The position numbers were made by a program, and so were the translations under genes. This document shows, in pieces, positions 57,664 through 64,000 of a stretch of DNA of 64,000 bases. Positions within the stretch are counted from its first letter, which is position 1; each line of letters begins with the position of its first letter. The notes beneath the pieces are model-generated. The model was given only the letters and a program-made list of their open reading frames with translations. It was not told the DNA's origin and did no database searches. This DNA is from Fennellomyces sp. T-0311 (lineage: Eukaryota; Mucoromycota; Mucoromycetes; Mucorales; Lichtheimiaceae), in assembly GCA_025266875.1 (NCBI GenBank), contig JALLLT010000040.1, positions 124,001-188,000 on the forward strand, given 5' to 3'.

Positions 57664-59314
57664 TTACAATTCTTGGAAATAAGTGTGTCGTTTTTCGGAT
57701 CTGTGCTGACGATCTTGAGGGCAAAAGACATGACCATCAGACATGTAGTATACATCTGTAATGAGACAGCGACAGATATGGCAAGTGAAGCAGTTTGGAT
57801 GGAAACGCCAACCTTCCGCGGTCTGTGCACAACGGCCCTCGACAGGCTCATCACACTTTTTGCACAGAGAGTTGTTCATTTTATGATAATCGCGTCTGCA
57901 ATAAGGTGCATTCTGGTAGACGTAAAACATGTTGTTTGGAAATCGGCAACGGCATTCCTGTGAAAAGTACGTAAGCAAACATGGTGTCACATGTAACCAT
58001 GGGCTATATACTTACGTGACAACGGAAGCAATGTTTGTGCCATTTCCCTTTGAGTTTGCCATCTGCTGCAGAAACAGCTTCCTTTTCCACCGCACGACCA
58101 CAAGCACGGCATTTTGGCAAGTAGAGCATGTTGAAATCGGGGCGACAAAAGATCTTACCCTTGCGTTCCACCAGACCGGTCATTTCAGGATCAACAGGTT
58201 TGTTGCAGTGGTGGCATCGAATATGTTCTGGATGATAATAGCGGCCCAGTGCTCGCGTAGGTCGAACACGAGGCTCGATGGGTCGATTGCAAGCACCACA
58301 ATTAGGCCGTTTTTGGACCAACATGGTATAATCAATGTCACAATACAGGCGGCCTTGATATTCGAGCGGAGGGGAATGTGGGTCCAATCGGTTACGACAA
58401 GTATAGCATGAGTAACATTGTGTGTGGTATATCTATTAACCTCAGGTATGAGCGCTTTTCGATTTGTTGTTATGGATCGGGCTATTTACATCGTCACCAA
58501 CAGGAATACCGCCGGTTACGTCTCGATGGCAACGAGCACATCGCTTGGAGTAGAAGTCGTTGGGATGGGGTGTCACAGGTGACGTTTCATCACTGGATGT
58601 GGATCGCGACGCTGATTGGAGTTTCACTGGAGCTGGCGAAGTGCTGTTTTTACGCTCACGTTGAGCAAACGGTGGAGTAAAGTCGAATACGGGCGATACC
58701 AATTCATCTTCGTCGGTCCACATTGTCCTATATATATTCCAATCAGTGACCCATTTGGCCCTAATAAACACGCGCAAAAAACACACTTTTCCTGATATGT
58801 GGGCTTAAAGGACATCTAAATTTTATTTTTTAATTAGCGTTGATTTTCGGTTTGTTTGTTTTTGCAGTCGCTTACCGTTCGATCCTGCGTGGTGATGGCA
58901 TGGTCGTATGTGGGCTGTGGGTTCTTCTTGGACACGCCTTTAAAAGTTTCCTTGGCCTTGCCAGTCCAAAAGTGGAAATTAAACCTGGATCCTGCATATC
59001 AGGTTATTGTTTTTGAAGCAGAGGTTGCGCGATACGATAAAAAAAACATACCACTCGTGGGCGATACGCTATCTGTTGCCTTCCGAACCGTGTCTGCAGC
59101 TATCATAGAAACAGAAGTGAGCAAAAAACAAATTTCAACAACGAAAAAACCTTCTGAACGTACAGGTGTCTATTCTTATAGGCGCCTGTGGTATGGCCGG
59201 GACAGGCGGAGCGGCATGGCAAACATGATCCGCCAATTCTCGGACATGGACAGCTTGGTTGCAATCGGAGCATTTCACAGTTGGCAAGACTTTGGAAATG
59301 CGCGGCTCAGGCAT
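57664..59314 (-). CDS. four-LIM-domain protein
   Basis: Zinc-binding adaptor of 430 residues in seven minus-strand exons: 59164-59314, 59052-59099, 58876-58991, 58787-58815, 58490-58727, 58016-58432, 57664-57957. The N-terminus has a small CxxC...HVC zinc knuckle (VKCSDCNQAVHVRELADHVC), then a disordered linker. Four LIM domains follow: CARCHRDVTGG...HTQCYSCYTC; CGACNRPIEP...HIRCHHCNKP; CRACGRAVEKE...HCFRCHECRC; CKKCDEPVEGR...NCFTCHICRC. The zinc ligand pattern in LIM1 is completed across intron 58433-58489, which supports the model. Exon 4 is 29 nt. The layout is like fungal paxillin-type LIM proteins acting at actin or septation sites, but lacks a RhoGAP domain. Confidence 0.88.
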
Positions 59315-61029
59315 GGCAAAGTTATACAAACAGGAGAAAACGAAAGAGCGAAATGGATTGTATTTAAAATATAATATTCGTTACAGTTACACCACACTAT
59401 AGTGCTTGGGAACACGACGAGTTTTATATATCTTTCTGCCACGCCCTTTTCACTCTCCACGTCGTATCACCTTCGACAAAACGGCTCGCGCCATTTATTA
59501 CTCGCCCCCGTTTAAGGTTTCATTCTCTTTCCCTTTTGTTTTTTACAATGGATTCAAAGTAACCCCCGAGAGCAGATCTCTTCTTGTGTGACATCGTCTG
59601 TACTACCATATACTACTTTATCAACGTCATTCCCTGCCTCTTTGCCTTGGAAGCCTTGGTAACTGAAAGCAAGCTGCGTCTGGCTGCATGGCAGTGCTTG
59701 TTTCGTAGCAACGTTTGTCCAGTCACATGCGTTCCTTGTGGTCATCCCAAAAGTGCTTCATGGGCCTCGTAGGTGAAGTGGTCTGGATGTGGCCTGAGCG
59801 TGCACACACTTCTTTTCAATCTATCTTTGGTATTTCATGCATAAATAAAAAAAACAGCGCCTTGGATATCTCTGGACTGCTTCATTAGCTATATTCTTTT
59901 GCTATATACCTAAAAATCTCTGGCACGCTTAATCATCGCCCGGTAATTGTTCCAGTTTCATCTAATCCGACTTTCCGAGCCATATGCTCCGCTATAACTT
60001 GACATTTGGCTTACCTTGAGCTAGAACCGTTTTCTGTAGATCATTACTTCCTTGCATTAGGAAATTGAGATGATGTTTCAGCGCTCCATTGGTGGCTAAT
60101 TATAGCCTCACAAATGCGAAATGATTATTACTTAGGCTACATAGTGTCATTCGACAACGTCGCCATCAATCACTGCTACTAAAGCACATCGTATCTTGGA
60201 ACAGCTACCGTTCGCACTGGTACGTACTGCTACATAAAATTTCTGACATAATACTTGCTAAGTGAAAGTGAATCTATTGTCCAAGTTATAATTAGAGCAA
60301 TATATTACTCGCTTATATTTGTGACAAATTGCTCATGATTATTTTTCAAGGAGTGAATCCAGCCACATTTGATCGATGATACAACAATTAACCCACGTAT
60401 GTACAGTAGACTCCGGCCTTTTGCGAAGTGGGTAACTTATACAGGGCTTTTAGGTGGAAATGGGACGACATACATCAAGTTTTGCAATGCTCCCCGAAAA
60501 GTTAAGTGCATAAAAGCGTTTGGTATGGTTTGCTCAAAACTCTGGCCTTCACTCTCTAATCTTGGCATCGATCCGCTTCGGCAATCTCCATTCTGTTTCG
60601 TGTACCGTCCAAAAAGTCTCAGTCTATCGGTTTCATTTTTTTTGCAATTTCTGATATCCATATAAAAAGTTCGAGCATGTTCTCGAAAATTTAATCATCT
60701 TCTTGTAGAAATAATAACTACCACAGCTACATAGCTGCTGTAACGGTGGTAAACAGGCAGGTTGCCATGGTTACAACGTAATAACCATGTACTGTAGAGT
60801 TTTTTCTTATTGCGAAATGTATTAAAGATGACTTTATATGCTACTTTCATATAGTACTTTCCATTTCCTATGCTTTCCCACTTTTGACTTCTTCCATTTT
60901 CTATGGGGTGCGAGTTTTTTTGTGGGACTTCTGCGGAATGTAATTTCGTGTTCCTGAGGAAAAGCAGTCTCAATTATCAGATGAGCCAGGAACACTGTCA
61001 TGCAAATATCATAGCTATTTTACTGCGAT
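59315..61029. other. intergenic, promoter of LIM gene and transposon flank
   Basis: About 1.7 kb. The first few hundred bp serve as the LIM gene's promoter side. No gene recognised; frames at 59554-59772 and 60369-60665 overlap on both strands without family resemblance. A perfect 8-bp inverted repeat, CATGGTTA-N8-TAACCATG, lies at about 60766-60789. The region just before 61030 may contain the 5' terminus of the transposon, but I could not identify a terminal inverted repeat. Confidence 0.5.
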
Positions 61030-63815
61030 ATGTCATTTACGCGTTTTCCGAATGGTGATAGAATCCAAACGATCCAGCTCAATATCGAGGATGGAGTACC
61101 TGTGTACGACATGGATATTGGTTGGCAGCTTACCCAGAGAAGCTACGACAAGATCATTGGTGGAATCAGCGTCACCAAATCTTGCTTAGGTGCTGTCCAG
61201 TGCACGAAGGTCGGCTGTGGCAAACTGGTGAGACCAGGATCTACCATGGCGAATATTCGCAAGCAAATCGAAGCAGGCTGCACTTTTTGCCCCGAGAAAT
61301 CCGAGTTAATTCACATTACGTGCGGTGCAAGAGTGAACATGAAGTTCACTGGCAATGGCGGCAAAATGAAGCATACGGGCATTCATACTCATGGCGAATT
61401 TGTACCACTCCACGACCCGATCGAAACTTTGAAGAAGGTGGAGGAACGTGTTCTGGAGTGTCCAGCCGATACAGCACAAGGATTGTTGGTTGGCACCAGT
61501 GTCATTCGCCCGCAGAATCCAAGTCGCCCTATCCGACTCATTGATCCCAACCTCCACCACAAGGCACGTATCAAGCGCTACAGACGAAATTATCTGGTGA
61601 AGAACAACATGCTACCTTCGGGGAAACCTGCTTTGGAGCTAGCCTCGTTGACACTCGGTGATCTTGCTAATGAGTATCCTGGATTTATCCAACAAGCGGA
61701 TATATTGCCTCAACAATTCTGCATTGCTTTCTGTAATCCAGATATTGCTTCGCGTGTCGACCTCAAGAATAACCCCATACTCACGGATGTTACTTATGAC
61801 TGTTTCCCTGGTGGATATTACTTGTGCACTACAAACATGTACTTCCAAGAACTTGACCAGTATGCGGTCATCTTCCAAGCAGTATTGGATGGTCTGTCGA
61901 GTACTCATTTCGCAGCATATTTTAAGGCATTCTTCAAGGCATTCGATTTTGCCATTGGATACCATGACGACGAGATTGATGCAAATTTCTCTGGTTTGGT
62001 GATGGACTTTTCGCTTGCTCAACGCGATGGTTTCCTCTTGGCTTTTCAGCAGACATTCCCTTTCAGTAAAATTGATCCTCAATCATTGCTGAAAGGCTGC
62101 TATCACCACTGGTGTCAGTCTGTCCAAAGACTTGCTAGCAATCATGCTGTGGTAGCGCCAGGAAGAGAGACGGATTTCGAAGACTTAGCCAGTATGATGT
62201 ACAACTCCCGTGGCGAGAAGAGCTTCGAGTTAGCCGTTCAGCAAATGCGCATCGATTTCCCGAACTCTGAACGCTGGCTAAAATGGTGGACGCAATCTGG
62301 AGTGGCGGCAATGATATTCCAATCGAAGGGGATACTGAAAGAGGAGCTACAAGAAAACTCCACCCGCACTACTAATGGAGTGGAGGCTTTCCATCGCGAC
62401 CTATATCGCATAGTGCAGCAGAAAAAGCCAATCATCGACACACTGAAGCAGATATTCAGCTATCTCCAGTGTACCGGGAGCTTTTTTCAGCGTATCGATA
62501 TTGGCGCCAAGATTAACGACAAGATGAAGCCACGAATGTAATTATTGAACTCTGTATATGTGACCTAGTTCTAACCACAGATGCGTTCATTAGCAAAAAG
62601 CGTAACCTTAAGCCAAAATTCGTCAACGATGGCCGCGCCCCTGACACTACGAAAGAATTGCTCGCAACAGGTTCAATGGAAAATTACAGTGTTCTTAATA
62701 TGTCATATTAAATTATACTACTTTTGTAGGTGGCGATGGCAAGAACAAGGAGGAAGAAAAGGAGAGGGAGAGAGGCGGAAAGAAGAAGAGTGAGGGAGCT
62801 GGGAAGAGGAAGAGTGGGGAAGATGGGCGGATGAAGAGTGAGGAAGAGGAGAGGAAGAGGAGCGAGGAAGAGGAAGAGGAAGAGGAAGAGGAAGAGGAAG
62901 AGGAAGAGGAAGAGGAAGAGGAAGAGGAGAAGAAGAAGGGAGGAAAGGAAGGGGATAGAGCGAATGAAGAAATGCGGAAGCAACAGTCATCAGAAAGGCG
63001 GCGAAAGCTTACTGAAAAGCTGGCCCAGGGAAGAGACCTGTTGAAGCAACAGAAGAAGAAAGAGGCTTTGGAGCGTCAGTCGAGAAAAAGAAAGCAGAAC
63101 GAAGGTGATGCCCAAGCAAAGTAAGATTGGAGGGAAACATATACGGTATCAGGTTTATGTTACTATATCTACTAACTATATAATAACGAAATTTAGAAAG
63201 AAAAGAGTTAATGAGTGGACAATCGCACGACTGGACTTGAGACCTGTTCCTGGTGGTGTCATGACGAAGTTCAACCTTGATCAAGCAGCTGTGCTTGGTA
63301 TGTACGATCCAAAGGCTGATGGGCATTGTGGATGGCGTGCAGCATCTGTTGTCCTGAATGGGACCGAACAAGAATGGCCACTCGTGAAGGTGTGCATGGA
63401 TGCGATTTTAAAAAAGCATAGCGAGTTCTACAGATACGGACTTCGCGTAGAGTACGACGATTTACTCAGAATGCTTAGCCATCAAACAGAAGGTGTGGGT
63501 GTCTTTTCCAACAACTACTTTGAAACGTTGGATTGCCCACGTCTTCTTGCAGAGGCATACAATCGGCCAGTAGTAATCTATAGCGACGATTCCCAGATGA
63601 CATACTTGCCACACTTACAAGAACCACCTCCGTCACCCCAAAGCCCGATTGTTCTGTATCTGTCTGCCTTCCATTTCCGCGCAATCGTACTGGATGAAGA
63701 AGCAATCACAAAGATACAGTGGCCACCGATCTATCCAGGGTACTATCAATTCAACAAGGACCTAAATCTACCTCTAGGATGGTATGATCTCTATGCACCT
63801 GTGTGTAGAACTTAA
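61030..63815 (+). mobile_element. MULE-type transposase with GCM/WRKY zinc finger, plus OTU protease
   Basis: The 503-codon ORF 61030-62541 has a GCM/WRKY-type zinc finger at residues ~50-123 (Cys 52, 58, 63, 84, 87, 98; His 115, 119, 121) and a Mutator-like DDE core: D253 in LTDVTYD, D326 in LVMDFSLAQRDG, a CxxH at 357-360 (GCYHHWCQSVQRL) and E452 in RTTNGVEAFHRD. Downstream coding exons follow in phase with each other: ~62571-62670 (FISKKRNLKPKFVNDGRAP), 62730-63120 (a Lys/Glu block of long GAG/GAA repeats) and 63197-63815. The last is an OTU-like cysteine protease with DGHCGWRAASVVLNG and a C-terminal His in SAFHFRAIVL. Whether ORF1 splices into exon 2 is unresolved, because the obvious junction (GTAATT at 62539 to CACAG at 62580) shifts frame by one base. 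The 3' terminus lies outside the window. Confidence 0.85.
62836..62937 (+). repeat. GAG/GAA triplet-hexamer repeat coding poly-Glu
   Basis: Runs of GAAGAG hexamers inside the linker exon of the transposon gene encode more than twenty consecutive Glu residues, flanked by Lys/Arg-rich sequence. It is prone to length change by slippage. Because its repeat unit is a multiple of three, such change would keep frame. Confidence 0.9.
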
Positions 63816-64000
63816 ATGGTAATATTGGACAATTTGTGAAGGTACAGTATTAGCATCTATGTTTTCCGGTTATTAACGTATCATGATAATAGAATCAAAA
63901 ATATACTTAAATACAAAACTATACAAGAACACCTCATAATCGAAACAGATGAGTATTGCAGTATAGTAAGTGCATTCAATCTTTTATGCATAGCTTGTAA

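Follow-up and report, generated by a model that had tools for sequence, protein, structure and literature searches.

MULE transposons that carry Ulp1 proteases are known under the names Kaonashi and CUMULE, and in the WRKY-GCM1 MULE transposases, which Babu and colleagues are said to have described in 2006, a GCM-type finger is reportedly located N-terminal to the DDE core; we know of no C-terminal OTU domain in the latter. The present analysis concerns a transposon of the Mucorales fungus Fennellomyces sp. T-0311 with a GCM-type finger, a DDE transposase core and an OTU domain, situated at the right border of a stretch of 64,000 nucleotides (in the following termed the window; C118:124001-188000 of a genome of 45.6 Mb in 182 contigs). 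The association of a DDE transposase with a protease of the ubiquitin system has been documented for Ginger1 (Bao, Kapitonov and Jurka 2010, PMC2836005): according to the accessible parts of this source, a single protein of Ginger1 comprises the transposase and, at its C-terminus, an OTU or Ulp1 protease, for which the authors suggest a role in transposition or repair, and Ulp1 is also recorded from Mutator elements. Helitrons and Helentrons with OTU and VTD domains are treated in PMC9741609, in the available portions of which the OTU activity of transposons is stated as untested and the domains are suggested to protect from proteasomal loss.

The Fennellomyces locus probably represents an autonomous, MULE-like cut-and-paste transposon with a single spliced gene, the product of which would be a transposase with an intrinsic C-terminal domain of the OTU deubiquitinase type. 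That the GCM-type finger, the DDE core in MULE order and the OTU domain belong to one mobile element, as proposed in the initial annotation, was supported by the ends, the copies and the reading frame of the element.

Ends, copies and exon structure

The boundaries of the element were determined by comparison of both flanks of seven copies: it begins with GGGTGCG at 60906 and finishes with CGCACCC at 64387, and the DNA similarity among the copies listed sets in between 60897 and 60906. The interval 61030-63815, to which the feature had been assigned, corresponds to the gene, whereas the whole element is longer:

60906..64000 in the window (3,482 bp long, its right end at 64387 when the window numbering is continued), plus strand: MULE-like DNA transposon; seven copies are alike between the ends and unlike outside
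60897..60905 (left copy) and 64388-64396 (right copy, past the window): 9-bp target-site duplication TTTTCTATG; the same 9-mer abuts both ends
60906..60927, 22 bp: left terminal inverted repeat GGGTGCGAGTTTTTTTGTGGGA; its partner TCCCACAAAAAAAGACCGCACCC (23 bp) forms the right end past the window

The other copies are abutted by different repeats (TCGTTTAAG, GTGCTGGCTC, GCTTAAAGG, TTCAAATTT, TTATATCG). In six of the seven copies the target duplications are perfect (9, 9, 10, 9, 9 and 8 bp), the pair of the C108 copy being imperfect; their size falls within the 8-11 bp of MULE/Mutator elements, and the short and imperfect inverted repeats of 22 and 23 bp agree with MULE termini as well. Six TCCCACAAAA-like motifs are clustered at the right end. 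Inverted ends and target duplications are the marks of cut-and-paste insertion. Such further copies, the prospect of which had been held out by the initial annotation, thus exist in the genome: the first frame is present in full length at seven places with 97-100% identity and broken at an eighth (C174), and this near identity suggests that insertion was recent. Nor did the OTU part turn out to be absent or unlinked in other copies, a possibility raised before; the full OTU exon is present in seven of the eight, and the eighth contains it in pieces. An origin of the OTU exon as a chance host neighbour was rejected, the exon being located inside the ends of all seven full-length copies. The sequence to the left of the element (60700-60905) is a dispersed repeat, with the element at its edge or inside, and recurs at 28 other places with 69-81% identity among the matches listed, many of which stop near the insertion point. 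Further upstream, LIM-domain-like Cys/His repeats were recognized by eye on the minus strand (57664-58804), a probable host gene.

The predicted gene is composed of four exons on the plus strand, separated by putative GT-AG introns:

61030..62537, plus strand: exon 1, zinc finger of the GCM type at roughly residues 50-121, and the DDE core of the transposase
62538..62593, plus strand: putative intron 1, GT-AG, 56 nt
62594..62670, plus strand: exon 2, NDGRAPDT motif, conserved in related elements between transposase and C-terminal domain
62671..62729, plus strand: putative intron 2, GT-AG, 59 nt
62730..63120, plus strand: exon 3, charged linker, Glu-rich and Lys/Arg-rich
63121..63196, plus strand: putative intron 3, GT-AG, 76 nt, carries TACTAAC
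63197..63815, plus strand: exon 4, OTU domain

Without splicing, the frame from 61030 comprises 503 amino acids (aa) and ends at the stop codon 62539-62541. Joined, the four exons yield a single frame of 864 residues and a stop; the junction formerly placed at 62541-62583 is thereby replaced by the first intron listed above and two more introns follow. The spliced frame is open in all seven full-length copies (849 to 863 codons including stop in the other six), and the length of exon 3 is offset among the copies by 6, 24, 30, 36, 36 and 48 bases, all multiples of six. This exon includes a (GAGGAA)n-like repeat (62850-62930), and copies otherwise near-identical differ in its length. In the C108 copy (C108:51259-54428) the third intron measures 200 nt versus 76 nt, with splice sites and frame kept. 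The open frame in seven of seven copies and the exon 3 changes in multiples of six bases are more than would be expected by chance. An NDGRAPD-like motif (62620-62660) is found between transposase and C-terminal domain in the families of the present type, whichever domain follows; the Circinella models P0001, P0004 and P0021 contain close variants of the NDGRAPDT motif, and the deposited models of Circinella minor (801 aa, 824 aa and a partial one of 457 aa) combine transposase, NDGRAPD-like motif, charged linker and OTU domain.

MuDR carries two genes, mudrA and mudrB, and the Fennellomyces element might likewise hold one gene for the transposase and another, with a transcript of its own, for the OTU protein. 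Two points weigh against the fusion and in favor of two genes: without splicing, the frame runs into a stop codon behind exon 1, and P0015 and P0016, deposited models from Fennellomyces, begin behind the transposase. The Circinella models are not free of defects (P0001 stops before the OTU histidine, P0004 is without the CxxH stretch, P0021 is partial). Owing to these incomplete Circinella models and the split of a second Fennellomyces model, confidence in the overall interpretation is slightly reduced. However, the three introns restore a single frame in every full-length copy, and exon 2 (NDGRAPD) is conserved and joined to both sides in the Circinella models; two separate genes are therefore regarded as rather unlikely. 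Judged from its sequence, the single gene would give rise to one transcript for transposase and OTU domain.

Transposase and OTU domain

The Cys/His finger described in the initial annotation as GCM-like matches a solved GCM domain by profile, in sequence as well as in fold. Its reading of the catalytic residues was likewise confirmed: D253, D326 and E452 (first codon bases 61786, 62005 and 62383) are invariant over 12 aligned relatives, and C357 (62098), the first residue of the CxxH that includes H360 (62107), is nearly so; the segment is absent in P0004 and the histidine is replaced by tyrosine in L033. The resulting order, D-D-CxxH-E, is that of MULE/Mutator transposases. The Pfam profiles to which the initial annotation had pointed gave no such assignment: the proteins of the window matched none for MULE, GCM or OTU, and the domain identities in consequence rest on alignments and models. 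PF03615 had no match in the host genome, an uninformative result in view of control genomes equally without match.

Generally, the DDE enzyme of a transposon cuts and joins at the element ends, which are read by a finger domain. The GCM-type finger of the Fennellomyces protein would probably read the inverted ends, and its DDE core would cut and join, with target cuts staggered by about 9 bp. The membership of the transposase in the MULEs is the weakest part of this interpretation: no PF10551 match was obtained by Pfam for the window protein or the 12 relatives, and hhalign comparison of its profile with PF10551-type transposases gave probabilities of 2.1% and 0.7%, which are not significant (the 2.1% alignment pairs D326 and C357 with the MULE D and CxxH). 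Alternatively, the enzyme could derive from hAT, KDZ or Merlin, DDE superfamilies with duplications of 8-9 bp. Such an origin is unlikely: the GCM finger is typical of some MULEs, the D-D-CxxH-E order points in the same direction (though order alone does not exclude hAT), one copy displays a 10-bp duplication, and the top-ranking match is ISCth4, which we take to be a member of IS256, a bacterial family related to the MULEs.

Exon 4 contains the layout that the initial annotation had traced through the downstream exons, DGHCGWR (D41, C44) and HF (H159; residues counted from 63198), with first codon bases at 63318 (Asp41), 63327 (Cys44) and 63672 (His159). D41, G42 and C44 are invariant in all ten aligned OTU domains and H159 is present in nine, the tenth (P0001) ending before this position; the DGxC box and the catalytic Cys/His pair of OTU enzymes are thus in place. 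The profile of the ten rows finds OTUD5 (E 1.9e-10), VCPIP1, OTUD1 and viral OTUs, whereas the window OTU sequence alone gave no Pfam match and its relatives only sub-threshold OTU or otubain matches. The structure model (pLDDT 86.5, pTM 0.86) has the OTU fold: in each of two fold comparisons, the 50 matches listed are all OTU enzymes. An acidic residue or Asn is found two positions after the histidine in the OTU layout but is not known to be common to all OTU subfamilies; the Fennellomyces domain has Arg161 there, at a position that is variable among the relatives. The domain is predicted to be catalytically active.

Some viral papain-like proteases cut polyproteins, and the long charged linker between transposase and OTU domain as well as the viral OTU domains among the fold matches would be compatible with a processing protease that cuts a transposase-linker polyprotein instead of ubiquitin. 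The top profile and fold matches are, however, cellular deubiquitinases (cleavage motifs were not searched for), and this function appears quite improbable. As a deubiquitinase, the domain would most likely strip ubiquitin either off the transposase or off proteins located where the element inserts, and so spare the complex from degradation or aid repair; alternatively, its targets might be ubiquitin marks on chromatin or at sites of repair. An escape from host ubiquitin control, as put forward in the initial annotation, is one conceivable purpose among these.

Linkage of OTU domain and transposase

The OTU query yielded 75 rows in the genome, corresponding to 72 places after merging of fragments, which were compared with 150 listed PF10551 rows (150 of 196 candidates scored) and 47 rows of the present transposase; the counts do not represent independent events, many copies being near identical. 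Within 1.6 kb, a transposase was located upstream on the same strand at 55 of the 72 places, downstream at 2 and on the opposite strand at none (60, 5 and 7, respectively, within 6 kb). Conversely, an OTU domain was found within 2.1 kb of 38 of the 86 strong PF10551 rows (E up to 1.3e-11), of one of the 64 weaker ones and of 19 of the 47 present-type rows. A second family (56% identity) has like ends, with the OTU domain inside in two of three copies, the third being without left end, and target duplications of 9 and 9 bp in two of the three; PF10551-type elements share a common right edge in three of four copies compared, without verified duplication. Named OTU relatives occur in Circinella, Dichotomocladium, Benjaminiella, Zychaea (fragments) and Jimgerdemannia, the linkage to a transposase being known from the Circinella fusions only. 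P0027 (332 aa), without Pfam match, appears by eye to lead from a SWIM-like transposase end to an OTU start (DGHCGYRALAV), which hints at a MULE-OTU protein outside the present group.

MULEs capture genes, and the OTU domain could be host cargo acquired in a Pack-MULE-like manner or catalytically dead ballast, with which the lack of an identified third catalytic residue and the dN/dS values of close OTU pairs (0.66 versus C108 with 10 changed codons, 0.78 in another pair with 11; no significance test) would agree, but the same order and strand at the 55 places in several MULE families, the invariant D41, G42 and C44, the dN/dS values of two PF10551-type OTU pairs of greater divergence (0.32 and 0.30, likewise without significance test) and the position of the single PF02338 match of the host genome (C124) outside the places found by the OTU query make this very improbable.

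In some GCM-type relatives another domain replaces OTU (L037 on C6, C46:11369-12229, C165:3996-4856, C120:18327-19187, L033 on C171 and L025 on C134). On visual inspection, the boxes of L037 and L033 follow a USP-like order (NSCYIDAPMEMML, CDCSEFFEHFVTAL, Cys pairs, NHFYCQ); a USP identity of the C-terminal domains in L037, L033 and L025 relies on such a by-eye reading and was unsupported by Pfam or PDB searches. It is conceivable, if tentative, that the MULE-type transposons of Mucoromycotina generally reserve a place for a deubiquitinase behind the transposase, occupied by OTU in GCM-type and PF10551-type families and by a USP-like domain in some GCM-type relatives (L037, L033, L025), where it likewise follows the NDGRAPD motif. 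In that case, transposition would repeatedly require ubiquitin control, a need that Ginger1, Helitrons and the Fennellomyces element would have met independently of one another.

Comparison with known systems

Some plant MULE-like genes have perhaps been annotated with OTU domains. In the open-access literature surveyed, as far as its texts were accessible and with subscription papers and Repbase reports mostly outside the survey, neither an OTU domain in a MULE nor the combination of GCM finger, MULE-like core and OTU was described. In the available text of PMC6207730, "MULE transposase" and "OTU-like cysteine protease" are separate microRNA targets. The MULE-Mucorales elements (Dupeyron and colleagues 2019, PMC6446971) share, according to the accessible text, the host phylum and the 10-bp target duplication (one copy of the Fennellomyces element) but differ by a SWIM finger, 40-bp ends and one open reading frame; the terms OTU, protease, peptidase, GCM and WRKY are absent from the main text of that source as available.

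The Fennellomyces protein resembles the WRKY-GCM1 transposases in the GCM-type finger that reportedly lies N-terminal to their DDE core. With the Ulp1-bearing MULEs the element has in common a MULE transposon and a protease for a ubiquitin-like modifier, but its protease is an OTU and not a Ulp1; compared by eye, none of the five host-genome matches to PF02902 lay near the listed PF10551 or present-transposase rows. Helitrons and Helentrons, as far as described in the portions available, equally contain OTU in a transposon protein, which is a rolling-circle RepHel protein in contrast to a DDE transposase with target duplications. Ubiquitin- or SUMO-protease domains thus occur in several unrelated kinds of mobile elements, their purpose being merely suggested in the literature accessible. 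In the Fennellomyces element the pairing seems to be realized in one compact protein in near-identical, probably recent copies, so that a possible need of a transposase for its own deubiquitinase is directly testable by substitution of Cys44. A close counterpart is Ginger1, likewise a DDE transposase with C-terminal OTU in one protein, which according to the accessible description possesses a Gypsy-integrase-like core and a zinc finger and occurs in animals, whereas the Fennellomyces element combines a GCM finger with a MULE-order core in Mucorales. As a kind, the fusion of a transposase with a ubiquitin-type protease is already known.
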